DNA of 64,000 nt from Achromobacter insuavis (GTDB taxonomy: Bacteria > Pseudomonadota > Gammaproteobacteria > Burkholderiales > Burkholderiaceae_B), in the NCBI RefSeq assembly GCF_902859645.1, contig NZ_CADIJR010000018.1, forward strand, positions 1 to 64,000, given 5' to 3'. The position numbers were made by a program, and so were the translations under genes. Below the pieces are notes generated by a model, which saw nothing but the letters and a program-made list of their open reading frames with translations, was not told the origin of the DNA and made no database searches. Positions 5,230 through 25,809 of the stretch are shown piece by piece. Numbering within the stretch: position 1 is the first letter of the stretch; every line of letters starts with the position of its first letter.

Positions 5230-5323
5230 GATGGACTCCGTGGTTTTGCCCGCGTAAAGCCGGCATTTTCAGGCGTTTCGGCGCGTTTGTCATTCCGGGC
5301 GACAGCGGCGCGATTGGCTGTAT

Positions 5324-5344
5324 GTCTTATATCTTATATAAGAC
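5324..5344. promoter_or_regulatory. Palindromic candidate operator upstream of acnA
   Basis: Arms GTCTTATAT and ATATAAGAC form a perfect 9-bp inverted repeat around CTT, 95 bp before the acnA start. The core TATATCTTATAT matches the ATATAT-NN-TATAT family found three times in the 16-21 kb block. It could be bound by a GntR/FCD regulator encoded elsewhere, or by the one at 20642-21346. The palindrome is directly visible; the binding protein is inferred. Confidence 0.6.
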
Positions 5345-10790: not shown

Positions 10791-11782
10791 GCCCGCACCT
10801 TCAACATGATCTTGCCGATGTGCCGGCTGCTTTCCATCAGCGCGTGGGCCTGGGCCGCTTCTTCCAGCGGGAACACCTGGTGGATCAGCGGCAGGCAGCG
10901 TCCCTGTTCCATCAGCGGCAGCACCTTGTCGGCCAGCGCCTGGGCGATGGCGCCCTTGTCGTCGTCGGAACGCGGCCGCAGGGTGGAGCCGGTGAACGAC
11001 AGCCGGCGGGTCATGATGGGCAGGGCGTCGATCTCGGTCTTGCTGCCTTCCAGGAAGGCGATCTGCACCAGCCGGCCATTCACCGCCAGCAGGCGGATGT
11101 TCTTGTTGATGTAGGCGCCGCCGACCATGTCGAGGATCACGTCCACGCCCTGGCCGTCGGTGGCCTGGCGAACCGCCGCCTCGAAGTCGGTGTCGCGGTA
11201 GATCAGCGCGTGCTGCGCGCCGGCCTTCAGGCAGGCCTCGGCTTTTTCCTGGTTGCCCACCGTGGTCCAGACCTCGGCGCCAAAGGCGCGCGCCAGCTGG
11301 ATCGCGGTCAGGCCGATGCCGCTTGAGCCGCCGTGCACCAGGAACTTCTCGCCGGCCGCGAGGCGGGCGCGCTCGAACACGTTGGTCCAGACGGTGAAGT
11401 AGTTCTCCGGGATGGCGGCGGCGGACAGCAGGTCCAGGCCGCGCGGCACCGGCAGGCAGTGGCGCTCGTCGGCCAGGCAGTACTGCGCGTAGCCGCCGCC
11501 GGGCGTCAGCGCGCAGACCCGGTCGCCAACCTGCCAGCGCGTGGCGTCGGGACCGACGGCGACGATGGTGCCCGCGACCTCCAGTCCCAGGTAGGGCGAG
11601 GCGCCGGGCGGCGGCGGATACGAGCCGGAGCGTTGCAGCACGTCGGGGCGGTTGACGCCGGCGTAGGCGACCTCGATCAACACCTGGCGGCCGGCGGGCG
11701 CGGCCATCTCGCGTTCGGCCAGGCGCAGGCAATCGGGCGCGCCGCCCGTGCCGTGGTCGATGAATGTGCAGCGTAGAGACAT
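10787..11782 (-). CDS. NAD(P)H-quinone oxidoreductase-like protein (PIG3/zeta-crystallin family, MDR)
   Basis: This 331-residue zinc-free medium-chain reductase starts at ATG 11782 (MSLRCTFID). It has the PIG3-type motifs YAGVNRPDVLQRSG, LGLEVAGTI and VGDRVCAL, the nucleotide fold HGGSSGIGLTAIQLA, and DMVGGAYINKN. Family members reduce quinones or enoyl/ketone substrates with NADPH in the cytoplasm. It sits 19 bp after livF and overlaps the SDR gene, so it belongs to the transporter operon. Its placement suggests a role in processing the transported substrate rather than general quinone detoxification, but that is inference. Confidence 0.88.
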   Translation of the reverse strand: MSLRCTFIDHGTGGAPDCLRLAEREMAAPAGRQVLIEVAYAGVNRPDVLQRSGSYPPPPGASPYLGLEVAGTIVAVGPDATRWQVGDRVCALTPGGGYAQYCLADERHCLPVPRGLDLLSAAAIPENYFTVWTNVFERARLAAGEKFLVHGGSSGIGLTAIQLARAFGAEVWTTVGNQEKAEACLKAGAQHALIYRDTDFEAAVRQATDGQGVDVILDMVGGAYINKNIRLLAVNGRLVQIAFLEGSKTEIDALPIMTRRLSFTGSTLRPRSDDDKGAIAQALADKVLPLMEQGRCLPLIHQVFPLEEAAQAHALMESSRHIGKIMLKVRA

Positions 11783-11801
11783 GAATGCGGTCCTTCGGAT
11801 T

Positions 11802-12506
11802 TCAGTGGCCCAGATAGGCCTTCTTGACATGGGGATCGGCCAGCAGCTCGGCGCCGGTGCCGGTGCGCACGATGGCGCCGTTCTCCAGCACGTAGCCGCG
11901 GTCGGCCAGGCGCAGCGTGCGGAACACGTTCTGCTCCACCAGCAGCACCGTGACGCCGTGGGACGTGACGTCGCGGATGATGTCGAACATCTGCTGCACC
12001 AGCAGCGGCGACAGGCCCAGCGAGGGCTCGTCGAACACCAGCAGCTTGGGGTCGGCCATCATGCCGCGCGCGATCGCCACCATCTGCTGCTCGCCGCCGG
12101 ACAGCGAGCCGGCGTACTGCGCCAGGCGTTCGCGCACCCGCGGGAAGATCTGCAGCACTTCCTCCAGCTTGCGCTGCACGATGGGGCGGGCGGCGCGCTT
12201 GTACGAGCCCATCAGCAGGTTGTCGCGCACCGTGAAATGCGGAAACAGCTGGCGGCCTTCGGGAATCATGGTGATCCCGGCGTCGACGATGTCGTAGGGC
12301 GTGCGGTTGGTCAGGTCGCGGCCCTCGAACTCGACCCTTCCGGTGGTGGCGGCGACCACGCCGCACAGCGTCTTCAGGGTGGTGGTCTTGCCGGCGCCGT
12401 TGGCGCCGATCAGCGTCACGATCTCGCCGGCCCTGACCTCGAAGTTCAGGCCGTTGAGCACCTGGCTCTTGCCGTAGCCCGACGACAGATCCGAAACCTT
12501 AAGCAT
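11802..12506 (-). CDS. Branched-chain amino-acid-type ABC transporter, ATPase (LivF-like)
   Basis: The 234-residue ATPase has Walker A GANGAGKT, Q-loop context MIPEGRQLFPHFTV, signature LSGGEQQ, Walker B LLVFDEPS and a VLLVEQN switch. These are diagnostic for the LivF branch. It pairs with the LivG half of the upstream fusion protein at the inner face of the membrane. Its start overlaps the end of livMG by 8 bp. LivFGHMK-type systems carry amino acids, urea, aromatic acids and other small carboxylates, so the substrate must come from the neighbourhood. Confidence 0.95.
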   Translation of the reverse strand: MLKVSDLSSGYGKSQVLNGLNFEVRAGEIVTLIGANGAGKTTTLKTLCGVVAATTGRVEFEGRDLTNRTPYDIVDAGITMIPEGRQLFPHFTVRDNLLMGSYKRAARPIVQRKLEEVLQIFPRVRERLAQYAGSLSGGEQQMVAIARGMMADPKLLVFDEPSLGLSPLLVQQMFDIIRDVTSHGVTVLLVEQNVFRTLRLADRGYVLENGAIVRTGTGAELLADPHVKKAYLGH

Positions 12507-14280
12507 CCTGGTACTCCTTGCCCAAATAGGCCTCGATGACGGCGGGGTTCTCGACCACGTCCTTGGGGGCGCCGCTCACCAGCACCGCGCCTTCGTTCAG
12601 CACGATGATGCGGTCCGACAGCGCCATGGTGGCCTGCATCATGTGCTCGATCAGCAGCACCGACACGCCCGAATCGCGGATGCGGCGGATCATCTTGATC
12701 GACTTCTCGATGTCGGTGGGGTTCAGCCCCGCCATGACCTCGTCCAGCAGCAGGATGCGCGGCCGGATCGCCAGGGCGCGGGCGATCTCCAGCCGCTTCA
12801 TGCCGCCCACCGTCAGGCTGCGGGCCTCGGTGTTCAGGTACTTGAGCAGGTCGGTTTCCTCGGCCACCTTGAGCGCGATCTGCTCGGCCTCCTCGCGGTC
12901 GGCGGTGCGGATGAAAGCGCCCAGCATGATGTTCTCCAATACCGTCAGGCCGGTGAACGGCTTGGCGATCTGGAAGGTGCGGCCCAGCCCCTGGTGCGCG
13001 AACTCGTCCGGCGTGTTGCACGAGACCCAGTTGCCCTTGGCATCGACCATCGACACCGCGCCCTTGTCGGGCGACAGGAAGCCGGACAGCAGGTTGAACA
13101 CCGTGGTCTTGCCAGCGCCGTTGGGGCCGATCATGCCCAGGATCTCGTGCTGGTTCAGCGTCAGCGAGACGTCGTTGGTGGCGCGCAGGCCGCCGAAGCT
13201 CTTGAACAGGTTCTCGGCCTTGAGCACCGGCTGCTCGCGCCGCGCCGCGTCGGTCGGACGGGCCGGTTCGACCCGCTGGCGCCGGGCGCGCGGCGTGCCC
13301 AGGTAGGGCAGGCGCGCCAGCGCGCGCTCGATGGCCGGACCGAAGGCGCCGGCCAGGCCGCGCGGAATGGTCAGCACCACCGCCACCAGGATCAGGCCGT
13401 AGATCAGCCCGTGCATGCCGTTGCCCACGCTGGACAGCCAGCCGCGCGCGAGCTCGGCGATCGGCAGCACCAGGAAGGTGCCGGCGATGGGGCCGGCCAC
13501 CGTGCCCAGGCCGCCGATCAGCGCGAACATCGCCACCTGGATAGACAGCTCCAGCGAGAAGGCCGAGCTGGGATCGACGAAGGTCAGGTAAGTGATGTGG
13601 AAGGTGCCGATCACGCTGGTCAGCATGGCCGACACCACCGCGGCGATGATCTTGACGCGCACCGTGTGGATGCCCACCGCCAGCGCCGCGTCCTCGCGCT
13701 CGCGGATGGCGATCAGGTAATGGCCGATGCGCGACTTGCGGATGTACCAGGACACCCAGGTCACCAGCAGGAACAGGCCGAAGGCGATGATCACGTAGTT
13801 GATCTTCTCGCGGAACACGATCCAGGCCCAGCCGATGTTCAGCGGCAGGCTGATGCCGCTGGAGCCGCCGGTCCAGCTTTCCTCGTGGATCACCAGCAGC
13901 CGCACCACTTCCAGGATGGCGATGGTGGCCAGCGCGAAGAACGGACCGCGCAGCCGCAGCGTGGGATAGCTGATGATGATGGCCACGACGGCCGAGATGG
14001 CCGCGCCCGCCAGCATGCCGAACCACGGCGAGATGCCGAAGTTCTGCGTCAGCAGGGTGGCGGTGTAGCCGCCGATGCCGTAGAACACCGCGTGGCCCAG
14101 CGACAGCTGGCCGGCGTAGCCGCCGACGATGTTCCACGCCACCGACAGCGCGGAGAAGACGAACAGCAGGACGAACAGGTTGGTCCAGAACGGCGTGCCC
14201 GTGACGACGGGCACGATGAACATGACGATCAGCAGAATCAGGCTGACGTAGGCTTTGGGGCTTCGAAAGTCGGGAAACAC
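12499..14280 (-). CDS. ABC transporter permease-ATPase fusion (LivM-LivG)
   Basis: A single 593-residue chain joins a LivM permease (about 1-320, eight or more membrane helices, with the cytoplasmic coupling segment IREREDAALAVGI) to a LivG ATPase (about 350-593). Walker A GPNGAGKT is at 385-392 and Walker B RILLLDE at 508-514. The ABC signature reads LTVGGMKR (489-496) instead of the common LSxGQ/LSYGQQR. GTG at 14280 is the chosen start because AAGGAG lies 6 nt before it; an in-frame start further up would run into livH. LivM-LivG fusions are known in betaproteobacteria. The gene lies 22 bp after livH in a six-gene operon. Confidence 0.93.
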   Translation of the reverse strand: MFPDFRSPKAYVSLILLIVMFIVPVVTGTPFWTNLFVLLFVFSALSVAWNIVGGYAGQLSLGHAVFYGIGGYTATLLTQNFGISPWFGMLAGAAISAVVAIIISYPTLRLRGPFFALATIAILEVVRLLVIHEESWTGGSSGISLPLNIGWAWIVFREKINYVIIAFGLFLLVTWVSWYIRKSRIGHYLIAIREREDAALAVGIHTVRVKIIAAVVSAMLTSVIGTFHITYLTFVDPSSAFSLELSIQVAMFALIGGLGTVAGPIAGTFLVLPIAELARGWLSSVGNGMHGLIYGLILVAVVLTIPRGLAGAFGPAIERALARLPYLGTPRARRQRVEPARPTDAARREQPVLKAENLFKSFGGLRATNDVSLTLNQHEILGMIGPNGAGKTTVFNLLSGFLSPDKGAVSMVDAKGNWVSCNTPDEFAHQGLGRTFQIAKPFTGLTVLENIMLGAFIRTADREEAEQIALKVAEETDLLKYLNTEARSLTVGGMKRLEIARALAIRPRILLLDEVMAGLNPTDIEKSIKMIRRIRDSGVSVLLIEHMMQATMALSDRIIVLNEGAVLVSGAPKDVVENPAVIEAYLGKEYQDA

Positions 14281-14302: not shown

Positions 14303-15169
14303 TCACTCTGTGCCGACGCCGAACAGGCCGGTCGGACGCAGGACAAGGATCAAGAGGAAGATCCCGAAATAGACGACCTCTTTGAGGTCGGGGGCGATGT
14401 AGTAGCCGGCCAGCGTATCGACGATGCCGATGATCATGGACCCGGCCACCGCGCCGTACAGGCTGCCCAGGCCGCCCAGCACCACGATCACGAAGGCGGT
14501 CAGCACGAAGTACGTGCCCACCGTCGGGAACACCGGATACTGCGGCGCCAGGAGGCCCGCGGCGATGCCGACGAAGGCGGTGCCCAGGCCGAAGGCGATG
14601 GCGTAGACGTTGTTGACGTTCACGCCCATCAGCGTCGCGGCGTAGCGGTGCTGCGCCACCGCCCGCAGCGCGCGGCCCAGGTAGGTGCGGTGCATGAACA
14701 GGTGCAGCAGCACGGCCAGGCTCAGGCCGACCACGAAGGTCACCAGCTGGCCGGTGACCATGGAGTAGTTGCCGACGTCGATGGCGCTGGTGCCCAGTTG
14801 CACCGGGGCGCGGAACACGTTGGCGCCGAAGATCACCAGCGCCAGGTTCAGCAGGATGGTGGACACGCCCACCGTGGCGAAGATCTGGATGTGCTGGTCG
14901 GCGTTGAGCAGCGGCTGGATGATGCCTTTCTGCGTCAGCGCGCCCAGCGCGAACAGGATGACCGCCACCGGCACCAGGCCGATGTACGGATGCACGCCGA
15001 ACTGCGCCGCGATCAGATAGACCAGGTACATGCCGATCATCAGGAATTCGCCGTGCGCGAAGTTGACGACGCGGACCACGCCGAAGATCAGCGTCAGCCC
15101 CAGGCTGATGATGGTGTAGGCGCCGCCCAGCAACAGGCCATTGATGACCAGTTGAATGAAGATATCCAT
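14303..15169 (-). CDS. Branched-chain amino-acid-type ABC transporter permease (LivH-like)
   Basis: An inner-membrane permease of 288 residues with about eight hydrophobic helices. The family landmarks are GLTLIFGVVRVVNFAHGEF near the N-terminus, the cytoplasmic loop GRALRAVAQHRYAATLMGVN that contacts the ATPase, and the C-terminal LRPTGLFG. It forms the transmembrane channel with the LivM half of the fusion protein. It is separated from the binding-protein gene by 150 bp that contain two hairpins, which may lower its expression relative to the binding protein. Confidence 0.94.
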   Translation of the reverse strand: MDIFIQLVINGLLLGGAYTIISLGLTLIFGVVRVVNFAHGEFLMIGMYLVYLIAAQFGVHPYIGLVPVAVILFALGALTQKGIIQPLLNADQHIQIFATVGVSTILLNLALVIFGANVFRAPVQLGTSAIDVGNYSMVTGQLVTFVVGLSLAVLLHLFMHRTYLGRALRAVAQHRYAATLMGVNVNNVYAIAFGLGTAFVGIAAGLLAPQYPVFPTVGTYFVLTAFVIVVLGGLGSLYGAVAGSMIIGIVDTLAGYYIAPDLKEVVYFGIFLLILVLRPTGLFGVGTE

Positions 15170-15319: not shown

Positions 15320-16519
15320 CTATTTATTGAAGACGGGCTTGCCCAGCGCGAGGTTGTCCGGCGCGATGGTGACCAGCTTGCCGTCCTGCCACTGCATCAC
15401 GTAGAAGGTCGAGGCGTTGTTCTGGCCATCCTCGCCGAAGTCGAAGGCCCAGCCGTTGGCGGTCTGGCCGGCGGGCTTCTTGTACGCCAGCACGGCCGCG
15501 CGGATCTTGTCCTTGTCGGTCGACTTGGCGTTGGCGATGGCTTCGAAGAAGGCCTTGGCGCCGACGTAGTTGGTCAGGCTGTGGCCGGACTGCGGGTCGC
15601 TCTTGTAGGTGGCCTTGTAGGCTTCCAGGAACTTGTCCAGGCCCGGCGCGCCGGCCGGGTTGATGGACGATTGCGGGAAGTCCAGGTCGAACACGCCGTT
15701 CATGTCGGCGCCCACGGCCTTGGCGGTGTCGGCCAGCGAGTAGCCGCCGCCGGCGCCGATCACCACCTTGGGCTTGAAGCCGGCCGCGCGCGCCTGGCTG
15801 AAGTACAGGATGGCGTCGTTCTGGTAGGCGGTCTGCAGCACCACGTCGACCTTGGCGCCCTTCAGGCGCAGGATCAGCGAGGACAGGTCGACCGTCTTGG
15901 CCGAGTACGGCAGCACCTCGGCCACGGTGTAGCCGAGTTCCTGGGCGCGCTTTTTCTCGGTGGCGGCCACGTCGGTGCCGTAGGGGCCGTCCTCGTGGAT
16001 GATGCCGATGCGCACTTCTTTCGGGTTCAGGCCCATGCCCGGCCCGATGATGTCGTGCAGCGCGTTGACCACCGAGACGCCGTACAGCGCGGTGTTGGGG
16101 TTGCTGCGGAACAGGTATTTGTAGCCGCGCGTGGTGATCTTGTGGGCGGTGGCGCCCAGCTCGAAGTAGGGCACGCCGGCCAGCTCGGTCACGGGCGAGG
16201 CCGCGTACGAGATGCCCGAGGCGTAGCTGCCGAACACCCCGACCACGTTGGACGAGATCAGGCGCTTGGTCTCGGATACCGCCTGGGTCGGGTCGACCGC
16301 GTCGGCCTTGATGATCTGGATCTTCTCGCCGTTGATGCCCCCGGCGGCGTTGATCTCGTTGACGGCCAGCTCCAGGCCGCGATAGCTCTCTTGTCCCAGC
16401 AGCGCCAGGGCGCCGCTGAACGGGAAGAGGGCGCCCACCTTCATGTCGGCCGCCGCGGCGCCGCTGGCCATGGCGCCGCACAGGCCCAGCGCGATGGCGA
16501 ATTTGTTGATCTTGAACAC
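15320..16519 (-). CDS. ABC transporter substrate-binding protein (LivK-like, peripla_BP_6)
   Basis: This 399-residue periplasmic protein has a Sec signal peptide (MFKINKFAIALGLC, cleavage after GAAA, about residue 23). A type I bilobed binding fold follows: VGALFPFSGALALLGQ, then GGINGEKIQII, VGVFGSYAS and GIIHEDGPYGTD. It delivers ligand to the LivH/LivM channel. The family binds branched-chain amino acids, amides and aromatic carboxylates, so ligand cannot be assigned by sequence alone. It is the first gene of the operon and has a palindromic operator 64 bp before its start, shared in type with the divergent SDR/BKACE operon. Confidence 0.94.
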   Translation of the reverse strand: MFKINKFAIALGLCGAMASGAAAADMKVGALFPFSGALALLGQESYRGLELAVNEINAAGGINGEKIQIIKADAVDPTQAVSETKRLISSNVVGVFGSYASGISYAASPVTELAGVPYFELGATAHKITTRGYKYLFRSNPNTALYGVSVVNALHDIIGPGMGLNPKEVRIGIIHEDGPYGTDVAATEKKRAQELGYTVAEVLPYSAKTVDLSSLILRLKGAKVDVVLQTAYQNDAILYFSQARAAGFKPKVVIGAGGGYSLADTAKAVGADMNGVFDLDFPQSSINPAGAPGLDKFLEAYKATYKSDPQSGHSLTNYVGAKAFFEAIANAKSTDKDKIRAAVLAYKKPAGQTANGWAFDFGEDGQNNASTFYVMQWQDGKLVTIAPDNLALGKPVFNK

Positions 16520-16582: not shown

Positions 16583-16596
16583 ATATATGATATATG
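16583..16596. promoter_or_regulatory. Candidate GntR operator, livK side
   Basis: ATATATGATATATG differs only at the two central bases from the site at 16797-16810 in the same divergent region. It lies 64 bp upstream of the binding-protein start. The core TATAT-GA-TATAT has perfect five-base half-sites. Confidence 0.65.
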
Positions 16597-16794
16597 CGCC
16601 GGCGGGGTGTGGGAACCTCGTCCTGGATTCTAGTGCCGGACTTGTCCGGTTGAATCGGGGATTTCCCTCAAGCCGCATGAATAAAGCGTTTGCGGGCAGT
16701 TTTCCTCTGCGGAGCAGGTCAAATTCCGCTGTCCGGACCCGGTTTCACGGACCCGTTCATGGCTGCTTTCCTGGCAAGAAAGTTCCCCTTTAAA

Positions 16795-16811
16795 TCATAT
16801 ATCCTATATGA
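16795..16811. promoter_or_regulatory. Candidate GntR operator, SDR/BKACE side
   Basis: A perfect 7-3-7 inverted repeat, TCATATA-TCC-TATATGA, is 41 bp upstream of the SDR start. It shares the ATATAT-NN-TATAT core with sites at 16583 and 21447. With the first site it brackets the 332-bp divergent promoter region (16520-16851), which holds no gene. Confidence 0.7.
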
Positions 16812-16851
16812 TCAAAAGGCGTTTGAGCACAAGAATCCAGGAGACAGAAGC

Positions 16852-17634
16852 ATGTTCGAGGAAGTGGATTTCGCCGGAAAAAAGGTACTCATCACCGCCG
16901 GCGCCGATGGGCTGGGCCTGGAAATGGCCCAGGTGTTCCACCGGGCCGGGGCGTCGGTGCTGGTGTGCGATGTCAACCGCGAGCGGCTGGCGGCCTTGCC
17001 GGCCGAGCTGCCGGGCGTGCGCGCCGTCCATGCCGACGTGTCGGATGAGGCCAGCGTGGCCGCCCTGTTCGACGCCGTGCGCCAGCAGCTGGGCGGCCTG
17101 GACATCCTGGTCAACAACGCCGGCGTGGCCGGCCCCACCGGCTTCGTCGAGACGCTGTCCAAGGCCGATTGGGACCGCACCCTGGCCGTCAACATCACGG
17201 GCCAGTTCCTGTGCGCGCGCCAGGCCATCCCGCTGCTCAAGCAGTCGCGCGCCGGCGTCATGATCAACCTGTCGTCGGCCGCGGGCCACCTGGGCTTTGC
17301 CGGGCGCTCGGTCTATTCGGCCTCGAAGTGGGCGGTGATCGGCTTCACCAAGTCGCTGGCGATCGAGCTGGGCGGCCACGGCATCCGCGTCAACGCCATC
17401 CTGCCGGGCGCGGTCGAAGGGCCGCGCATCCGCGCCGTGATCGACGCCAAGGCCAGGACGCTGGACAAGCCGGTCGAGGAAATCGCCGCGCTCTACGAGA
17501 ACCAGGCGGCGCTGGGCCGCATGGTCACCGCGCGCGACATCGCCAACATGGTGCTGTTCAACGCCAGCGAGGCCGCCCGCAGCGTCACGGGGCAGGCCAT
17601 CGTGGTGGACGGCTTCACGCAGAAGCTCTACTGA
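16852..17634 (+). CDS. SDR-family oxidoreductase, first gene of BKACE operon
   Basis: A 260-residue classical SDR with cofactor motif TAGADGLG (15-22), NNAG (88-91), catalytic Ser142, and Tyr155-x3-Lys159. The first glycine motif is TAGADGLG rather than TGxxxGIG. The start ATG 16852 has AGGAGA 8-9 nt upstream, and the operator lies before it. The stop overlaps the next start (TGATG), so the operon is translationally coupled. It likely oxidises a hydroxyl group of the substrate brought in by the divergent liv transporter. Confidence 0.92.
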   Translation: MFEEVDFAGKKVLITAGADGLGLEMAQVFHRAGASVLVCDVNRERLAALPAELPGVRAVHADVSDEASVAALFDAVRQQLGGLDILVNNAGVAGPTGFVETLSKADWDRTLAVNITGQFLCARQAIPLLKQSRAGVMINLSSAAGHLGFAGRSVYSASKWAVIGFTKSLAIELGGHGIRVNAILPGAVEGPRIRAVIDAKARTLDKPVEEIAALYENQAALGRMVTARDIANMVLFNASEAARSVTGQAIVVDGFTQKLY

Positions 17635-18596
17635 TGGCGGCCGATCCGCAGCGGCGCCACGCCGCCATCATCGGCACCGGCCTGATCGGCCAGGCCTGGG
17701 CCATCGTGTTCGCGCGCCAGGGCTGGCAGGTGCGGCTGTACGACGTCAACGCCGCCATGCTGGCCGAGGCCGGCGCGCTGATCCGGCGCCAGCTGGATGC
17801 ATTGCAGGCGCACGGCCTGTTGCGCGACGCGGCCGCCGCGGCCGGCCGCATCCAGACCGCCGCCAGCCTGCAGGAGGCGCTGGCGGGCGCCCGCTACATC
17901 CAGGAGAACTCGCCCGAGCGGCTGGATCTGAAGCGCGACCTGTTCGCGCAACTGGACGCGGCGGCCGACCCCGACGCCATCATCGGCAGTTCCACGTCCA
18001 GCATCCCCGCCAGCGAATTCACCGAAGGCCTGCCCGGCCGGGCGCGCTGCCTGGTGGCGCATCCGGTCAATCCGCCGTACCTGATCCCGGTGGTGGAGCT
18101 GTGCCCGGCGCCCTGGACCAGCGAGGCCGCCATGCAGGCGGCGCGCGACATCATGCTGGATATCGGCCAGAAGCCGGTGACGATGCGGCGCGAGATCGAG
18201 GGCTTCATCCTCAACCGGCTGCAGGGCGCGCTGCTGCACGAGGCTTTCCGCCTGGCCGCCGCCGGCATCGCCAGCGCCGAGGACATCGACACCACCGTCA
18301 AGGACGGCCTGGGCCTGCGCTGGTCGTTCATGGGGCCGTTCGAGACCATCGACCTGAACGCGCCTGGCGGCCTTGCCGACTACTGCGCGCGCTACGGCGG
18401 GCTGTACCAATCCATCGGCGCCACCCAGGCCGACAGCGTGCCCTGGGACGGCGCGCTGGTCGAGGCCCTGGCGGCCGAACGGCGCGGCCTGCTGCCCGCC
18501 GACGACCTGACGGCGCGCCGCTACTGGCGCGACGAACAACTGATGCGCCTGATGCGCCACAAGCAACAGCAAGACAACGGAGACGGAAATGGCTAA
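17634..18596 (+). CDS. 3-hydroxyacyl-CoA dehydrogenase-family enzyme (lambda-crystallin / L-carnitine dehydrogenase-like)
   Basis: This 320-residue NAD enzyme has the Rossmann motif GTGLIG (14-19), the conserved SSTSSIPASEF segment, and the catalytic-region motif AHPVNPPYLIPVVE. The C-terminal helical domain carries GFILNRLQGALLHEAFRL. Length and motifs match the single-domain branch that includes lambda-crystallin/L-gulonate 3-dehydrogenase and L-carnitine 3-dehydrogenase, which act on free beta-hydroxy acids rather than acyl-CoA. The next gene is a BKACE, which consumes beta-keto acids, so this enzyme plausibly makes that beta-keto acid. It overlaps the previous gene by 1 bp and the next by 8 bp. 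Confidence 0.9.
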   Translation: MAADPQRRHAAIIGTGLIGQAWAIVFARQGWQVRLYDVNAAMLAEAGALIRRQLDALQAHGLLRDAAAAAGRIQTAASLQEALAGARYIQENSPERLDLKRDLFAQLDAAADPDAIIGSSTSSIPASEFTEGLPGRARCLVAHPVNPPYLIPVVELCPAPWTSEAAMQAARDIMLDIGQKPVTMRREIEGFILNRLQGALLHEAFRLAAAGIASAEDIDTTVKDGLGLRWSFMGPFETIDLNAPGGLADYCARYGGLYQSIGATQADSVPWDGALVEALAAERRGLLPADDLTARRYWRDEQLMRLMRHKQQQDNGDGNG

Positions 18597-19524
18597 GCCG
18601 AAACAGAAAGTCGTGATCACCTGCGCCGTGACGGGCGCCATCCACACGCCCAGCATGTCGCCGCACCTGCCGGTGACGGCCGACGAGATCGCCGAGGCCG
18701 CCATCGGCGCGGCCCGCGCCGGCGCCGCCGTGCTGCACCTGCACGCGCGCGACCCGGAAACCGGCAAGCCGTCGCAGGACCCGGCGCTGTTCGAGCCGTT
18801 CCTCAAGCGCATCAAGGCCGAGACCGACGCCATCATCAACATCACCACCGGCGGCAGCCCGCACATGACGGTGCAGGAGCGCATGCGGCCGGCCACCACC
18901 TTCAAGCCGGAGCTGGCGTCGCTGAACATGGGCTCGATGAACTTCGGCCTGTTCCCGATGCTGGGCCGCTTCCAGGACTTCAAGCACGAGTGGGAGCGCG
19001 AGCACCTGGAGAACAGCCGCTCGCTGATCTTCCGCAACACCTATCAGGACATCGAATCCATCCTGGAGCTGGGCAACGCCAACGGCACCCGCTTCGAGTT
19101 CGAGTGCTACGACATCAGCCACCTGTACAACCTGGCGCACTTCGTCGACCGCGGCCTGGTGAAGTCGCCGCCATTCATCCAGTCGGTGTTCGGCATCCTG
19201 GGCGGCATCGGCCCGCACCCCGAAGACCTGATGCACATGAAGCGCACCGCAGACCGCCTGTTCGGCAATGAGTACGAATGGTCGATCCTGGGCGCCGGCC
19301 GCAACCAGATGCCGCTGGCCACCATCGGCGCCGCCATGGGCTCGAATGTGCGGGTGGGGCTGGAGGATTCGCTGTGGATCGGGCCGGGCCAGCTGGCCGA
19401 GTCGAACCGGTCGCAGGTCGAACGCATCCGCACCATTCTGGAGGCGCTCAACCTGGAAGTGGCCACGCCCGCCGACACCCGCGCCAAGCTGGGATTGAAG
19501 GGCGGCGACAACGTGGCGTTCTGA
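18589..19524 (+). CDS. Beta-keto acid cleavage enzyme (BKACE, formerly DUF849)
   Basis: A TIM-barrel protein of 311 residues with the BKACE hallmarks CAVTGAIHTPSMSPHLP and AVLHLHARDP (paired His of the zinc site). NITTGG, the ECYDISHLYNL segment and GNEYEWSILGAGRNQMPL follow. The family condenses a beta-keto acid with acetyl-CoA, giving acetoacetate and a shortened acyl-CoA; known members act on 3-keto-5-aminohexanoate or dehydrocarnitine. The preceding dehydrogenase would supply the beta-keto acid. No CoA-transferase or thioesterase adjoins it, unlike carnitine clusters. The substrate is unassigned. Confidence 0.93.
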   Translation: MAKPKQKVVITCAVTGAIHTPSMSPHLPVTADEIAEAAIGAARAGAAVLHLHARDPETGKPSQDPALFEPFLKRIKAETDAIINITTGGSPHMTVQERMRPATTFKPELASLNMGSMNFGLFPMLGRFQDFKHEWEREHLENSRSLIFRNTYQDIESILELGNANGTRFEFECYDISHLYNLAHFVDRGLVKSPPFIQSVFGILGGIGPHPEDLMHMKRTADRLFGNEYEWSILGAGRNQMPLATIGAAMGSNVRVGLEDSLWIGPGQLAESNRSQVERIRTILEALNLEVATPADTRAKLGLKGGDNVAF

Positions 19525-19564
19525 CGCCAATCCGGGCAAGGGCGTGCGCGCCGCCGCCGGGGCG

Positions 19565-20632
19565 TCAGGCGTGGCGGCGCAAGGCGTCGACGAGGGTCTT
19601 GATGTCCAGCGGACGATCGAAATTGGCGGCATGGCGCGCGGCCAGCGTCAGCTCGGCCGCCCGCGCCAGTTCGGCATCGGACGGCGCGGCCGCGCCCAGC
19701 GCCGCCAGCGTGGTGGGCAGCCCCACCTGTTCGTACCATTGCGTCAGCGTGGCCAGCATGCCGTCCTGGCGCGCCTCCAGGTCCAGCTGCACCAGCAGGC
19801 CGACGGCCACCTGCAGGCCGTGCGGCGCGCTGGCCAGGCCGGCGATCTTCGGCAGGCCGCGCGTCAGGGCGTGGGCGATCGACAGGCCGCCGCTTTCGAA
19901 GCCCAGGCCGCTCATCAGGATCATGGCTTCCACCACCCGCTCGAAGGCGGGCGTGGGCTGGCCGCTGCCGGCCACGGCCAGCGCGTCGGCGCCGTCGGCC
20001 AGCAGCGTGCGCAGGCAGCCGTCGGCGATCAGCTGGGCGGTCAGCGGCGGGACGCCGTCGTACATGTTGCGTCCGCCGTTGCGGGCGCATTGCTCGGCTT
20101 CGAATTTCTTGGAGATGGCGTCACCCAGGCCGGCGCGGAAGAACGCCGCCGGCGCGGTGGCGATGACGGCGGTGTCGACCAGCACGATGGTGGGGTTGAA
20201 CAGCATGTGTTCGACCGCCAGGAGGTTGTGATGGGCGTCGTACAGCACGTAGTTCTTGCTGGTGGGGGCATCGTTCGAGGCCACCGTCGGCACCGTGACC
20301 AGGTGGCAGTGCGCGGCCTTGGCGACCGCCTTGCCGGCGTCCAGCGCCTTGCCGCCGCCCACCGCGATCACCATGTCGATGCCGGCGGCCGCGGCCTGCG
20401 CGCGCAGCGCCGCGATCGATTCGGGCGTGATGTCGCCCTCGACCGGCAGGGCCGTCAGCGCCACGCCGTGGGCGCCGCACAATGCCTCGATTCTCGGGCC
20501 CAGCACGCCCTGCACGTAGCGGTCGATGACCAGGGCGGCGCGGCGGCCGAACAGGGCGGCGTATCCGCCCAGCGCGTCGAGCGCGCCGGCTCCCTGGATG
20601 TAGCGGCCGGGAGCGCCGAAAATCTTCAGCAT
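19565..20632 (-). CDS. Iron-containing alcohol dehydrogenase family, glycerol dehydrogenase-like
   Basis: This 355-residue protein has the GldA layout: an N-terminal nucleotide domain (VIAVGGGKALDAGKA) and a helical metal domain. The metal ligands are Asp171 (GLGDA), His254 (SIAHAL) and His271 (APHGLQ), the same spacing as in GldA. It probably oxidises a polyol or hydroxy compound with NAD. The start at 20632 lies just downstream of the GntR stop, with a 9-bp gap, so the two form an operon transcribed away from the transketolase genes. The true substrate is likely that of the regulon rather than glycerol. Confidence 0.88.
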   Translation of the reverse strand: MLKIFGAPGRYIQGAGALDALGGYAALFGRRAALVIDRYVQGVLGPRIEALCGAHGVALTALPVEGDITPESIAALRAQAAAAGIDMVIAVGGGKALDAGKAVAKAAHCHLVTVPTVASNDAPTSKNYVLYDAHHNLLAVEHMLFNPTIVLVDTAVIATAPAAFFRAGLGDAISKKFEAEQCARNGGRNMYDGVPPLTAQLIADGCLRTLLADGADALAVAGSGQPTPAFERVVEAMILMSGLGFESGGLSIAHALTRGLPKIAGLASAPHGLQVAVGLLVQLDLEARQDGMLATLTQWYEQVGLPTTLAALGAAAPSDAELARAAELTLAARHAANFDRPLDIKTLVDALRRHA

Positions 20633-20641
20633 CGAGTCTTC

Positions 20642-21346
20642 CTATTTGCGAGGCCCGGGCGGGCGGTAGTCGAGTTCTTTTTCGCGTTCGACCAGCCAGT
20701 CGATCATGATCTTGCCGCCCCACACCAGGTCGGCCTGGATCGCCTTGGTGGCGGCTTCAGGGTCGCGCGCCTCCAGCGCGGCCAGCACCGCTTCGTGGCG
20801 GTGTTCGTCCTGGGAGTAGTCGAGCCCGGCCGTCTTGACGTGGAACACCTTGAGGATCGGGCCGGTGATGACCCAGAACGATTCCACGGTGTTGCGCAGG
20901 ATGGGCTTGTTGCTGGCTTCCAGGATGCCGAAGTGGAACTTGCGGTTCAGGTAGCTGGCGCGCTTGGGGTCGGTCGAGGTGCAGGAGATGAAGTCCTTCT
21001 GCAGCGCGATCAGGTTGTCCAGCTGCTTGCGCGTGATGTTCCTGGCGGCCTCGGCCGCGCCCATGCCTTCCAGGTGGAAGCGGATCTGCTGGATCTCGCG
21101 CAGCTTTTCCGAATTGACATAGGGCACGTAGACCGCGGTGGCGGCCTGCATTTCCAGGCCCTGTTCGCTGATGAGGCGGAAGATGGCCTCGCGCACGGGC
21201 GTGATCGAGACGCCCATTTCCTGGGCCAGCTCGCCAATGATGAGGCGCTCTCCGGGTTCGTACTGCCCGTTGATCAGGGCGTTGCGGATCTCGTTGTAGA
21301 CCTTGACGGAGAGGTTCTCTTTTTTTACCGGTTTAAGGCTGGGCAT
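20642..21346 (-). CDS. GntR-family regulator, FCD (FadR-C) type
   Basis: The 234-residue regulator has a GntR winged helix (about 8-75: VYNEIRNALINGQYEPGERL, GVSITPVREAIFRL) and an all-helical FCD ligand domain (REIQQIRFHLEG, then FHFGILEASNKP and HRHEAVLAALEARD). ATG at 21346 (MPSLKPVKKENL) is preferred to the upstream ATG because it gives the usual family length. A palindrome of the ATATAT-NN-TATAT type is about 100 bp upstream, and two more control the 16.5-kb divergent promoters. I infer that this protein is their shared regulator. FCD domains bind small carboxylates. Confidence 0.92.
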   Translation of the reverse strand: MPSLKPVKKENLSVKVYNEIRNALINGQYEPGERLIIGELAQEMGVSITPVREAIFRLISEQGLEMQAATAVYVPYVNSEKLREIQQIRFHLEGMGAAEAARNITRKQLDNLIALQKDFISCTSTDPKRASYLNRKFHFGILEASNKPILRNTVESFWVITGPILKVFHVKTAGLDYSQDEHRHEAVLAALEARDPEAATKAIQADLVWGGKIMIDWLVEREKELDYRPPGPRK

Positions 21347-21446
21347 GACGGTCGAGGCTTGGGTTCGATGGAATGGCGGAAGCCGTGAAACGGCGCCCGG
21401 CTGAATTCTATCCCGCCCTGGCCAATTCAAGCGCGATGGGTATATT

Positions 21447-21460
21447 ATATATCATATATT
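21447..21460. promoter_or_regulatory. Candidate GntR operator between gntR-like and transketolase genes
   Basis: ATATATCATATATT carries the same TATAT-NN-TATAT core as the sites at 16583 and 16797. It ends 21 bp before the transketolase ATG, near the likely -10 region, where a bound repressor would block transcription. Confidence 0.65.
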
Positions 21461-21481: not shown

Positions 21482-22339
21482 ATGCGCCAGGACCGGGGAG
21501 ACCCAAGCGAAGACGAGGTCCGGGTGTTGCGGGAAAAGGCCCGCCACATCCGGTTGGAGACCATCAGGCTGATCGAGATCGCCAAGGTCGGGCATTACAG
21601 CTCGGTCTTTTCGTGCGCCGAGATCTTTGCCGCCCTGTATTACGACGTGATGCGGCTGCGGCCGGGCGAGCCGGCCTGGCCGGACCGCGACCGCTTCCTG
21701 ATGGGCAAGGGCCATGCGGCCGTGGGCCTGTTCCCGGTGCTGGCCGACCACGGTTTCATTCCGCATGAATTGCTGGACGGCTACACCCGCCTGGGCAGCC
21801 CGCTGGGCGACCACCCCGACATGACCAAGGTGCCGGGCGTCGATTTCAGTTCCGGCTCCATCGGCCACGCGCTCTCCAATGGCGCCGGCATGGCGCTGGG
21901 CGGCCGCATGAGCCAGCGCGACTTCAACGTGTTCGTGATGCTGGGCGACGGCGAGATGCAGGAAGGGCAGGTGTGGGAGGCGGCGCTGTTCGCGGCGCAC
22001 CACCAGCTGTCGCGCCTGGTGGCCATCATCGACCGAAACGGTTATCAGCTCGACGGCAAGGTCGACGACGTGATCGGCGTGGAATCGCTGCGCGACAAGT
22101 GGCAGGCCTTTGGCTGGGAGGTGCACGAGGTCGACGGCCATGACCTGGTGGCGCTGACCGCGCTGCTGCGGCGCCTGCGCGCGGACGAGGCGCGCGAACG
22201 GCCGGCCTGCGTCATCGCCAGGACCGTCAAGGGCAAGGGCGTGTCCTATATGGAAACCGAACCCGGCTGGCATCTGGGCTACCTGGCGCCGCAGGACGCG
22301 CAGGCCGCCATCGACGAAATCATGACCCGCGAGATCTGA
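21482..22339 (+). CDS. Split transketolase, N-terminal (TPP-binding) subunit
   Basis: A 285-residue protein equal to the pyrimidine-diphosphate half of transketolase. The TPP motif is GDGEMQEGQVWEAA (from 155) through Asn186 in AIIDRN. The conserved GHAAVGLFPVLADHG and GSIGHALSNGAGMA segments are present. GAAGGAGA precedes the ATG. The next gene supplies the other half with no gap. Two-subunit transketolases of this type often serve dedicated catabolic pathways rather than the pentose phosphate pathway. Here the operator and neighbours place it in the GntR regulon. Confidence 0.93.
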   Translation: MRQDRGDPSEDEVRVLREKARHIRLETIRLIEIAKVGHYSSVFSCAEIFAALYYDVMRLRPGEPAWPDRDRFLMGKGHAAVGLFPVLADHGFIPHELLDGYTRLGSPLGDHPDMTKVPGVDFSSGSIGHALSNGAGMALGGRMSQRDFNVFVMLGDGEMQEGQVWEAALFAAHHQLSRLVAIIDRNGYQLDGKVDDVIGVESLRDKWQAFGWEVHEVDGHDLVALTALLRRLRADEARERPACVIARTVKGKGVSYMETEPGWHLGYLAPQDAQAAIDEIMTREI

Positions 22340-23326
22340 ATGGCACAGGCACAGACGCTTTCTCCCGATTCCTGGCAGTACCGCGCGCTGAACGCAGTGA
22401 ACCCCGGGCTGTCGTATCTTTCCGACGCGCTGATCGCGCTGGCGCAGGCCGGGCATCCGGTGGTGGCCGGCTCGGCGGACCTGCAGTATTCCAACGGCCT
22501 GAACCGCTTCGCCTCGGCCTATCCCGAGCGCTACGTGCAGTTCGGCATCTCCGAGCAGAACATGGTGTCGGCCGCGGCTGGGCTGGCCACCACCGGCGCG
22601 ATGCCGTTCGTGGCGACCTTCGCCTCGTTCCTGGGCCTGCTGTGCTGCGAGCAGATCCGCATGGACGTGGCCTACACCAGGCTGCCGGTGCGGCTGATCG
22701 GCCATCACACCGGCATCAGCCTGGGCTTCTACGGCACCTCGCACCACGCCACCGAGGACATCTCGACCATGCGCGCCATCGCCGGCCTGACGGTGGTGTC
22801 GCCGGCCGACGGGCCGCAGCTGGCCGCCGCCATCAAGGCCTCGGTGGACTGGCCCGAGCCGATCTATTTCCGCATCGGGCGCGGCCGCGATCCGCAGGTG
22901 TATGAAGACGGCGCGCCGTTCACGTTCGGCCGCGCCATCGTCCATTCGACCGGCAGCGACCTGAACATCATCGCCTGCGGCATCACGCTGCACGCGGCGC
23001 TGGAAGCGGCCGCCCGGATGCGCGAGGACGGCCTGTCGGTGGGCGTGATCGACATGCCCACCATCAAGCCGCTGGACCGCGAGGCGGTGCTGGCGGCCGC
23101 CGGGCAGGCGCGCGTCCTGCTGACGGTGGAAGAGCACAATGTGATGGGCGGCCTGGGCTCGGCGGTGGCCGAGGTGCTGGCCGATGCCGGCAGCGGCACG
23201 CGGCTGCGGCGCCATGGCATCTACGACGAATACAGCCTGATCGCCCCGCCCACCACGCTGTACGCGCATTACCAGCTGGACGGCGCCGGCATCGAGGCGG
23301 TGGCGCGCGAACTCATCGCGCGATAG
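22340..23326 (+). CDS. Split transketolase, C-terminal subunit
   Basis: This 328-residue protein contains the pyrimidine-binding domain, with the activating glutamate Glu72 in GISEQNMVSAAAGLA. The transketolase C-terminal domain (about 200-328) has VGVIDMPTIKPLD and VEEHNVMGGLGSAVAEVL. It starts immediately after the stop of the first subunit, so 1:1 production is expected. The two should form a TPP-dependent ketol transferase whose donor could be a ketose or ketose-like acid. There is no sugar kinase or isomerase nearby to reveal the substrate. Confidence 0.93.
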   Translation: MAQAQTLSPDSWQYRALNAVNPGLSYLSDALIALAQAGHPVVAGSADLQYSNGLNRFASAYPERYVQFGISEQNMVSAAAGLATTGAMPFVATFASFLGLLCCEQIRMDVAYTRLPVRLIGHHTGISLGFYGTSHHATEDISTMRAIAGLTVVSPADGPQLAAAIKASVDWPEPIYFRIGRGRDPQVYEDGAPFTFGRAIVHSTGSDLNIIACGITLHAALEAAARMREDGLSVGVIDMPTIKPLDREAVLAAAGQARVLLTVEEHNVMGGLGSAVAEVLADAGSGTRLRRHGIYDEYSLIAPPTTLYAHYQLDGAGIEAVARELIAR

Positions 23327-23382: not shown

Positions 23383-24192
23383 ATGAAGGAAATCAGCGGC
23401 AACACCCGCCTGTTCGGCATCCTGGCCGACCCGATCTACCACGTCAAAACCCCGCAGCGCCTGAACGAGCATTTCGCCCGCATCGGCTTTGACGGCGTCT
23501 GCGTGCCGTTCCATGCGCGGCCCGACAATCTGGCCGAGGTGGTGGCCGGACTGCGGCGGCTGGAGAACCTGGGCGGCCTGATCGTCACCATGCCGCACAA
23601 GGCGGCGATCCTGGCGCTGGCCGACGAGGCCACGCCGGTGGCGCGCAAGATCGGCGCCGCCAACGTGGTGCGGCGCGAGGCGGACGGCCGCCTGGTGGCG
23701 CACATGCTGGACGGCGAGGGCTTCGTGCGCGGCCTGCGCACGCACGGCGTGGCGCCCGAGGGCAAGAGCGCCTATCTGGCCGGCGCCGGCGGCGCGGCCA
23801 ACGCCATCGGCTTCGCGTTGGTGCAGGCGGGCGTGTCGCGCTTGACCATCGCCAACCGCACGCCGGCCAAGGCCGAGGACCTGAAGGCGCGCATCCTGTC
23901 GCTGCATCCCGAGGCCCGCATCAGCGTCGGCACGGCCGATCCGTCGGGCCATGACCTGGTGGTCAACGGCACCTCGCTCGGCATGAAGCCCGATGACGCG
24001 CTGCCGCTGGACGCGGCGCGGCTGACGCCGGACCAGCTGGTGTGCGAGGTCATCATGCAGCCGGCCGACACGCCGTTGCTGGTGGCGGCGCGGGCGCGCG
24101 GCTGCAAGGTGCACTACGGCGCGCCGATGCTGGCCGGGCAGATCGAGCTGATGGCGGAAATGATGGGCGTGGCGCCGGCCGCGCAACGCTGA
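23383..24192 (+). CDS. Shikimate dehydrogenase-like NAD(P) oxidoreductase with altered substrate motif
   Basis: The 269-residue protein has the AroE fold: an N-terminal substrate domain with catalytic Lys73 (VTMPHK) and Asp110 (LDGEGF). The nucleotide domain carries GAGGAA (134-139), an ANRTPAKAEDL segment and the NGTSLGM motif. The usual N-terminal HSxSPxxHN shikimate carboxylate site is instead HVKTPQRLNEH (20-30), so both serines are missing. It is therefore unlikely to be the biosynthetic AroE. It lies 56 bp after the transketolase genes and probably oxidises a different hydroxy acid of the pathway. Confidence 0.87.
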   Translation: MKEISGNTRLFGILADPIYHVKTPQRLNEHFARIGFDGVCVPFHARPDNLAEVVAGLRRLENLGGLIVTMPHKAAILALADEATPVARKIGAANVVRREADGRLVAHMLDGEGFVRGLRTHGVAPEGKSAYLAGAGGAANAIGFALVQAGVSRLTIANRTPAKAEDLKARILSLHPEARISVGTADPSGHDLVVNGTSLGMKPDDALPLDAARLTPDQLVCEVIMQPADTPLLVAARARGCKVHYGAPMLAGQIELMAEMMGVAPAAQR

Positions 24193-24210: not shown

Positions 24211-25809
24211 ATGGGCGACTACGACTTCATTATCGCGGGCGGCGGCACCGCCGGCTGCATCCTGGCCAACCGCCTGACGGCCGACGGCCGCCACCGGGTG
24301 CTGATGCTGGAAGCCGGGCACGAGGCGCGCAGCATGTGGATCTCGATCCCGGCGGGCTTTTCCAAGCTGCTGGTGAACCCGGACTACAACTGGCGCTTCG
24401 CCACCGAGCCGGAGGACAACGTCTACGGCCGCACCATCGCCGTGCCGCGCGGCAAGGGCCTGGGCGGTTCGACGCTGATCAACGGCATGATCTACGTGCG
24501 CGGCCGGCCGCAGGACTACGACGGCTGGGAGGCGGCCGGCGCCGCCGGCTGGGGCGCCGGCACCGCCGAGCGCGTGTTCCGCAAGATTGAATGCTATGAG
24601 CCGGGCGGCGAGACTCGCGGCAAGTCGGGCCCGATGCACGTGGAGGAAGTGGCCGAACGCTTTCCGGTGTCCGACGCCTTCCTGCGCGCGGCGCAGGAAG
24701 ACGGCCTGCCGCTCAATCCCGACTACAACGCCGGCCGCCAGGACGGGGTCGGCTACTACCAGGTGGCGCAGCGCCATGGCCGCCGCTGGAGCGTGGTGGA
24801 CGGCTACCTCAAGCCGGCCGCCGGCCGCAGGAACCTGACGGTGGAGTGCGGCGCGCACGTGACGCGGCTGCTGTTCGAGGGCAAGCGCTGCGTCGGCGTG
24901 GCCTATCGCAAGAACGGCCAGGAGTTCACCGTGCGGGCGCGGCGCGAGACGCTGCTGTGCCTGGGGGCGGTGCAGTCGCCGCAACTGCTGGAGCTGTCGG
25001 GCGTGGGCAGCCCAGCGCTGCTGCAATCGTTCGGCATTCCGCTGGTGCACGCGCAGCCGCAGGTGGGCGAGAACTACATCGACCACTTCGCCACGCGCAT
25101 GAACTGGCGGGTCCGGAACACCGTGACGCTCAACGAGATGTCGCGCGGCTGGCGCCTGGCGCGGCAGGTGGCGCGCTACTACACCCGCCACAAGGGCATC
25201 CTGACGCTGGGCACGGGCCTGGTGCACGGCTTCGTCAAGAGCGCGCCGGACCTGCCGGCGGCCGACGTGCAGTATTTCTTCGTGCACGCCAGCTACGCCA
25301 ACGCGGCCGAGCGCATTCTCGACCGCGCGCCGGGCATGACCATCGGCGTGGCGCAGCTGCGGCCGGAGTCGGTGGGCTCGATCCACCTGAAATCGGCCGA
25401 CCCGCTGGCCGCGCCGTCGATCCGGCCGAACTTCCTGTCGGCGCAGGTCGACCGCGACAGCCTGGTGGGCGGCATGCGGGTGGCGCGGCGCATCGTGCAG
25501 CGGCCGGCCCTGCAGCGCTATATCGAGCGCGAGCTGAGTCCGGGGGCGGACGTGGACAGCGACGCGCAATGGCTGGATTTCGCGCGCCGCAACGGCCAGA
25601 CCATCTACCACCCGATCGGCACCTGCCGCATGGGCGCGGACGCCGGCGCGGTGACCGATCCGCGCCTGCGGGTCAACGGCATTGCCGGCCTGCGGGTGGT
25701 GGACGCCTCGGTGATGCCGAAGATGGTGTCGGGCAACACCCAGGCGGCGGTGATGATGGTGGCCGAGCGCGGCGCCGAGATGATCCTGGAGGATGCCGCC
25801 GCCGCGTGA
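24211..25809 (+). CDS. GMC-family FAD oxidoreductase (choline dehydrogenase-like)
   Basis: A 532-residue flavoprotein with the N-terminal dinucleotide motif IAGGGTAG (8-15), the first GMC signature GKGLGGSTLINGMIYVRG, and the second signature GAVQSPQLLELSGVG. The C-terminal active site is IYHPIGTCRMG with downstream SGNTQAAVMM. It lacks a signal peptide, so it is cytoplasmic or peripheral and probably passes electrons to quinone. It oxidises a primary or secondary alcohol. It is the last gene of the operon and converges on the enolase-superfamily gene, with a weak 6-bp hairpin (CGGCCC/GGGCCG) at 25818-25833. Confidence 0.93.
   Translation: MGDYDFIIAGGGTAGCILANRLTADGRHRVLMLEAGHEARSMWISIPAGFSKLLVNPDYNWRFATEPEDNVYGRTIAVPRGKGLGGSTLINGMIYVRGRPQDYDGWEAAGAAGWGAGTAERVFRKIECYEPGGETRGKSGPMHVEEVAERFPVSDAFLRAAQEDGLPLNPDYNAGRQDGVGYYQVAQRHGRRWSVVDGYLKPAAGRRNLTVECGAHVTRLLFEGKRCVGVAYRKNGQEFTVRARRETLLCLGAVQSPQLLELSGVGSPALLQSFGIPLVHAQPQVGENYIDHFATRMNWRVRNTVTLNEMSRGWRLARQVARYYTRHKGILTLGTGLVHGFVKSAPDLPAADVQYFFVHASYANAAERILDRAPGMTIGVAQLRPESVGSIHLKSADPLAAPSIRPNFLSAQVDRDSLVGGMRVARRIVQRPALQRYIERELSPGADVDSDAQWLDFARRNGQTIYHPIGTCRMGADAGAVTDPRLRVNGIAGLRVVDASVMPKMVSGNTQAAVMMVAERGAEMILEDAAAA

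Follow-up and report, generated by a model that had tools for sequence, protein, structure and literature searches.

Conserved A/T palindromes in Achromobacter insuavis as putative operators of a local regulon of an FCD/VanR-type GntR regulator

Operators of the FadR subfamily of GntR regulators follow a TKGT/ACMA consensus, often with a weaker extra box 7–12 nt from the centre (as given in the accessible part of PMC4494728). For the VanR-type regulator Atu1419 of Agrobacterium fabrum, the accessible text of PMC7797058 describes Arg45, located in a helix with Ser44, Thr46 and Arg49, as reading the essential guanine of the operator ATGTATACAT; there, a change of G/C to A/T abolishes binding and an all-A/T version is not bound. 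Escherichia coli NanR is described as occupying (GGTATA)3 with three dimers, the cooperativity being ascribed to a 32-residue N-terminal extension (PMC8012715, accessible part), and the chromatin immunoprecipitation sequencing (ChIP-seq) motif of E. coli McbR (YncC) seems to include ATATAT, according to a second-hand account in the available part of PMC13343897. Here we describe three A/T palindromes in a 64,000-nt stretch of Achromobacter insuavis DNA (contig NZ_CADIJR010000018.1, positions 1 to 64,000; the window in what follows). As judged from comparative sequence analysis, they are very probably the operators of the FCD/VanR-type GntR regulator encoded at 20642–21346 (minus strand), which would repress transport and catabolism genes until a ligand releases it.

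The original prediction had named three near-identical A/T sites at 16583, 16797 and 21447, and these sequences are indeed present there. All three consist of A/T-only half-sites inside very GC-rich DNA, and the operator unit is better written as ATATAT-N-ATATAT, with half-site centres 7 bp apart, than as the ATATAT-NN-TATAT used before. Operator O1 (16583–16595, ATATATGATATAT) is centred ~70 bp upstream of livK, the gene of a substrate-binding protein (15320–16519, minus strand; PF13458) and the first of a transporter operon. Operator O2 (16794–16812, ATCATATATCCTATATGAT) is centred ~49 bp upstream of an SDR dehydrogenase gene (16852–17634, plus strand; PF13561), which is followed in the same operon by genes for a 3-hydroxyacyl-CoA-dehydrogenase-like protein (HCDH) and a beta-keto acid cleavage enzyme (BKACE). 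This site had been described as a perfect 7-3-7 palindrome; it is a perfect palindrome, but of the form 8-3-8, and its 13-mer at 16797–16809 (ATATATCCTATAT) has one mismatch to ATATAT-N-ATATAT. Operator O3 (21440–21459, GTATATTATATATCATATAT) comprises three ATATAT-like half-sites at a 7-bp period. Its exact 13-mer is centred 29 bp upstream of tktN, encoding the N-terminal subunit of a split transketolase and leading the tkt operon (21482–22339, plus strand; PF00456), and 107 bp upstream of gntR. With the limits of transcription units presumed from gene order, the sites precede the livK, SDR/BKACE and transketolase operons, as had been proposed. O3, however, lies between gntR-FeADH on the minus strand and the run of tktN, tktC, a shikimate-dehydrogenase-like gene (SKDH) and a GMC oxidoreductase gene, and since it is thereby also upstream of gntR-FeADH, the three sites face four presumed units and not three.

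To the rarity of the sites, scans of the window and of the whole own genome (6,822,063 bases in 199 contigs) gave the following picture. In the window, ATATATNNTATAT at up to one mismatch had 9 strand-wise matches, one of them an unrelated-looking site at 5327, versus a mean of 0.00 in 100 shuffles. In the own genome, ATATATNATATAT at the same threshold matched solely at 16583, 16797 and 21447 and in an overlapping frame at 21440; all such places in 6.82 Mb, three in number, thus fall within the cluster, and the genome scan bore out the predicted confinement of the motif. The exact ATATATSATATAT was found twice in the own genome versus 0 times for its reversed control. At exactly two mismatches, ATATATNATATAT had 24 further matches per strand, some mutually overlapping and one overlapping the 16797 site. 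Around 11 of these 24 places (L052–L062, with L054 and L055 being one place) no obviously related genes were seen by eye, which is weak evidence, the surroundings being judged from the first 45 residues of nearby open reading frames.

The same scans bear on whether the sites could be promoter elements (AT-rich −10 or UP sequences) that resemble each other by convergence. By their composition they do hold TATAAT-like strings, but each presumed unit has one copy of the same fixed-centre 13-mer and, with one mismatch allowed, the rest of the genome has none, whereas two other A/T-only palindromic 13-mers do not cluster, with 2 and 3 scattered one-mismatch matches and 0 exact ones in the own genome. 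We regard convergence of promoter elements as extremely improbable.

To assess conservation, 47 orthologue loci (L005–L051) were collected from one contig scan with the regulator protein as query, and 300 bp of upstream DNA were searched; a 60% identity filter removed L050 (57% identity) from the counts. The motif proved to be conserved upstream of the orthologues of the lead genes, as had been anticipated. The exact operator was present upstream of livK in 38/38 loci with usable livK upstream DNA and upstream of tktN in 36/36 loci, and the gap on the gntR side contained the operator in 46/46 loci at up to one mismatch (exact in 44). For SDR, 30 of the 36 loci had an operator within 300 bp and 27/36 a proximal site of its own within 90 bp. 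Operon-internal genes were not preceded by the operator in the loci counted (HCDH 0/35, BKACE 0/36, FeADH 0/40, tktC 0/36, GMC 0/46). SKDH was preceded by it in 10/46 loci, which are the ten where SKDH, and not tktN, is divergent from gntR; likewise, loci with GntR and SKDH and without the tkt pair had the operator before SKDH in 10/10 cases. These clusters without the split transketolase (L022, L027, L033, L036–L040, L045 and L046) thus have the SKDH-like gene behind the operator instead, and the six smallest of them (L036, L038–L040, L045 and L046) additionally lack SDR-HCDH-BKACE and Fe-ADH. Because livK, gntR, the SKDH-like gene and the GMC gene remain in these six, they look like the core set of the cluster.

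In six loci (L031, L032, L041, L042, L044 and L049) no site precedes SDR, and these are the ones in which SDR is part of the run behind livK. In all six, tblastn gave the co-directional order livK, livH, livMG, livF, oxidoreductase, second SDR, SDR, HCDH and BKACE, the gaps being estimated at 133 bp or less (livK being cut by the locus end). The exact operator lies 64–72 bp upstream of the run-head livK in 6/6 of these loci, and by eye each has an extra half-site 7 bp away with 5/6 bases matching. In Comamonas (L035/L086), livK is found on the other side of the cluster, still with its operator. From the joined loci and this placement of livK, the operator therefore accompanies the gene at the head of a presumed transcription unit and not a conserved segment of DNA.

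Co-occurrence was tallied by hand in 200 family genomes, with the regulator counted as present at E-values up to 1e-50. The exact ATATATSATATAT occurred in 44 genomes, the regulator in 34 and both in 33. Consequently, the motif was present in 33/34 GntR-bearing and 11/166 other genomes (Fisher p 4e-27, phylogeny not corrected), so that the predicted association of motif and regulator also holds in related genomes. Of the exact places in GntR-bearing genomes, 62/65 located ones fell within 12 kb of gntR (hand count; a 66th, in G118, is without a position). The regulator-bearing genome without an exact site, G139, is represented by a stretch (L083) of 39% GC with a GntR of ~55% identity, where livK is preceded by a one-mismatch site and the GntR/SKDH gap holds another; a further one-mismatch site is at position 120, chance matches being commoner in such AT-rich DNA.

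AT-rich patches in GC-rich DNA are typical targets of H-NS-type proteins. The A/T islands might thus be bound by a nucleoid protein of the H-NS or IHF type, or by another factor encoded elsewhere, with the neighbouring GntR being incidental, and the exact site in 11 genomes without this GntR speaks in favour of this. However, it is the exact 13-mer that is kept and not mere AT-richness, and its presence follows gntR in all but one of the 34 genomes that carry the regulator. Moreover, five of the 11 exceptions are small genomes (0.7–0.8 Mb) of one genus, and in another, G041, the site adjoins a paralogous FCD GntR. An unrelated factor is in our view quite improbable, and binding by the neighbouring GntR is the preferred reading. 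As a separate observation, an IclR-like gene (by eye) in one genome without this GntR has an exact site ~50 bp in front of it (L088, 5049–5061), perhaps by chance.

The regulator, a protein of 234 amino acids, shares 93–100% identity with its counterparts in many named Achromobacter species. It has an N-terminal GntR winged helix-turn-helix (PF00392, 52.8 bits, cut-off 27) and a C-terminal FCD domain (PF07729, 68.8 bits, cut-off 24.3). FCD effector domains of the FadR type have seven helices. The AlphaFold2 (AF2) model of the present protein (mean predicted local distance difference test score, pLDDT, 82.9) has six effector-domain helices (79–103, 106–122, 127–144, 148–171, 184–192 and 196–226), which is the number given for the VanR type in the accessible part of PMC13343897. 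With McbR, Atu1419 and AlkR among the top fold matches of the model, the regulator is a VanR-type FCD protein.

Its recognition helix reads SITPVR, with Ile48 at the position of Arg45 in Atu1419. All 28 orthologues that were aligned, those of the window, of L083 and of 26 among the 47 loci, have Ile there. Among the FCD regulators of the own genome, by eye, 25 of the 30 examined (of 32 found) have Arg at this position; the remaining five have Ala, His, Gln or Phe in one case each and, in the present regulator, Ile. The fold is shared with Atu1419; the regulator differs from it in the Ile for Arg45 and in an operator that is all A/T except for the centre; the loss of the guanine-reading Arg fits an operator without the GT/AC of the family. 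The residue aligned with FadR Arg35 (Gly here, Asn in McbR; hand alignment) was also considered as the cause of the A/T operator and rejected, since Arg occupies this position in a paralogue that neighbours an identical site.

Among solved structures, E. coli McbR is the closest relative. It was the best sequence match there (4p9f, E 5e-29) and the best fold match (34% identity, template modelling (TM) score 0.78/0.85), with 35% identity over 204 residues and an identical SITPVREA recognition helix, including the Ile. On the other hand, McbR is described in the accessible part of PMC13343897 as binding very many AT-rich sites, compared with three genome places for the present motif, and it has other target genes. 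The regulator does not classify as an McbR orthologue: it scored 137 bits with NF008504/PRK11414, below the cut-off of 225, while E. coli McbR scored 453 bits.

Several observations weigh against the assignment of the palindromes to this regulator. Firstly, the reversed-pattern control TATATANTATATA, with one mismatch allowed, matched 4 times per strand, as often as the pattern itself; one-base shifts of the same operator sites would be counted there. Secondly, SDR lacks its own proximal site in 9/36 loci, namely the six in which it is part of the livK run and three (L033, L034 and L037) with a single site in the livK-SDR gap, and in the 6.2 kb of L050 (57% identity), whose gene run begins off the contig, there is no site even with up to 3 mismatches allowed. 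Thirdly, while the sites are A/T-rich palindromes like the operators of the FadR subfamily, they have AT/AT in place of the conserved GT/AC: no GT...AC signature was found, and the half-sites are A/T-only in the window and in nearly all loci, the SDR-side site carrying a single G or C adjacent to its centre. The regulator assignment therefore rests on comparative genomics. Fourthly, the mcbR and mcbA promoter regions of E. coli K-12 do not contain ATATAT-N-ATATAT (best 4–5 mismatches), so that the parallel with McbR was not reproduced; McbR as direct proof was accordingly rejected, the motif within 2 mismatches being absent from both 12-kb mcbR/mcbA stretches.

Finally, a paralogous FCD regulator adjoins an identical site in three genomes. 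In G122 and G100 an exact site that is not within 12 kb of gntR precedes a class III aminotransferase-like gene (by eye), behind which a paralogous FCD GntR (~30% identity) is encoded, and G041, without the present regulator, has the same arrangement (exact sites before the aminotransferase-like gene at L080 5002–5014, L081 5046–5058 and L087 5040–5052). The motif is therefore not exclusive to this regulator everywhere. The paralogue may read the same operator sequence, and since both regulators coexist in G122 and G100, cross-talk between them is possible. At the helix position discussed above it has Pro and not Ile, which speaks against tying the A/T operator to the Ile. The third exact site outside the 12-kb range is in G060 (L082). 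Set against these points are the position, rarity and conservation of the sites, the presence of one site per presumed unit, the co-occurrence with the regulator and the family to which it belongs; on these grounds the neighbouring GntR is strongly supported as the regulator of the sites, as first proposed.

In the mechanism that we infer, which extends to direct binding, operon limits, dimer packing, the direction of control and the ligand, one regulator dimer would read ATATAT-N-ATATAT, and in the gntR/tkt gap, with its third half-site 7 bp further on, a second dimer could bind in register. Occupancy would repress livK-livH-livMG-livF-oxidoreductase, SDR-HCDH-BKACE, tktN-tktC-SKDH-GMC and gntR-FeADH together, and the regulator would come off the DNA once a substrate or intermediate of the pathway is bound in the FCD pocket. 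The operator on the gntR side implies autoregulation; as expected for an autoregulated FCD regulon, the gap that separates the regulator gene from its divergent target contained a site in each of the 46 loci (at up to one mismatch). The third half-site was present at offset +14 in 41/46 gntR-side sites, compared with at most 1/46 at eight other offsets, and was found at none of the livK operators in the counted loci (0/38). For such closely spaced repeats, NanR on (GGTATA)3 may serve as a model of FCD dimer packing (accessible part of PMC8012715), with ATATAT units at a 7-bp period at O3 instead. The half-site of NanR differs, and the present regulator seems to be without the N-terminal extension, helix 1 starting from residue 12 in the AF2 model.

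The regulator could also act at the same operators as an activator or dual regulator and not as a pure repressor, as the E. coli record annotates McbR as a dual regulator. We consider this unlikely: the sites lie near or downstream of likely promoters, their distances to the start codons being ~29, 49 and 70 bp, which favours repression, and FCD repressors usually control a divergent catabolic operon together with their own gene. Beyond the repression proposed here, the regulator might belong to a VanR-type specificity class that lacks the guanine-reading Arg45 (Ile here and in McbR, Pro in the paralogue) and the GT/AC signature, and reads tandem (ATATAT-N) units at a 7-bp period; the number of units would follow what the site controls, with, for example, a third unit where livK leads a joined liv-SDR run. 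This proposal is tentative, and we hold it to be possible rather than probable.

The divergent livK-SDR gap was compared in 29 aligned loci. O1 does not vary at any of its 13 positions, in contrast to most of the gap. Among the 26 divergons that contain O1 as well as O2, the spacing of the two is 211–214 bp in 25 and 202 bp in the remaining one. Atu1419 likewise acts on divergent promoters, where two palindromes are separated by 190 bp according to the accessible text of PMC7797058, and by analogy the spacing here would suit looping; close relatives would keep the distance anyway, and the tetramer with DNA looping is a feature of Atu1419. The aligned gaps also share an invariant CTAGAAT ~30 bp before O1. 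By eye this could be a −10 box, which would place O1 some 25–37 bp after the start site.

A second conserved element upstream of livK lies at 16651–16670 (minus strand), ~60 bp further from livK than O1. Its AGGGAAATCCCCGATT core is largely conserved in the 29 gaps, and the block is possibly an activator site or a part of the promoter. As a shared regulator site it was rejected, as the 15-base core had 16 genome matches at up to 2 mismatches compared with roughly 13 expected (hand estimate assuming uniform composition). Contrary to this estimate, the reversed core had 0 matches in the own genome, which speaks for a non-chance element.

The remaining genes of the cluster complete the four presumed units. 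Behind livK on the minus strand follow a livH-like permease gene (14303–15169; PF02653), a livM-livG-like fusion of permease and ATPase of 593 amino acids (12499–14280; PF02653 and PF00005 in one frame, the start being picked to match orthologue length), a livF-like ATPase gene (11802–12506; PF00005) and, last in the run, a PIG3-type quinone oxidoreductase gene (10787–11830; TIGR02824 above cut-off). SDR is followed on the plus strand by HCDH (17634–18596; PRK06129, NF004783 463 bits, cut-off 347) and BKACE (18589–19524; PF05853, NF053538 562 bits, cut-off 430). The Fe-ADH/glycerol-dehydrogenase-like gene (19565–20632, minus strand; PF00465) lies behind gntR with a 9-bp gap, presumably in the same operon. 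Downstream of tktN, on the plus strand, are tktC for the C-terminal transketolase subunit (22340–23326; PF02779, PF02780), SKDH (23383–24192; PF08501) and the GMC oxidoreductase gene (24211–25809; PF00732, PF05199). From NF053538 and the accessible part of PMC10470551, a phloroglucinol-type route was considered as a candidate for the pathway.

Overall, the cluster is a real, solid and well-conserved local regulon, if a fairly ordinary one, and its operator deviates from the pattern common in the protein family. An uncharacterised regulator of many Achromobacter, Bordetella and relatives is thereby given an operator and a regulon of four units, which ties together genes for a LivK-type transporter, a split transketolase, an SKDH-like protein, a GMC oxidoreductase and BKACE without a named joint pathway. 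Of some general interest is the non-signature operator together with the loss of the base-reading arginine, which offers a clean residue-to-base case for GntR specificity, with both Arg45 and G/C lost. The base-resolved operator would also be a ready reporter for the inducing compound and hence the pathway substrate. The regulon was not recognisable by title or abstract start among the literature matches listed, in a search that did not extend to most subscription papers and RegPrecise.

A further element was noticed at 5323–5344 of the window (TGTCTTATATCTTATATAAGAC), by eye upstream of an aconitase-A-like gene. The identical 22 bases also lie upstream of an aconitase-B-like gene (by eye) at ~1497–1518 of L054, their core being common to position 6446 of C55. 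Because TGTCTTATATCTTATATAAGAC resembles the SdhR operator, TCTTATGTCTTATATAAGACATAAGA in the accessible part of PMC4494728, it is probably the site of another regulator.

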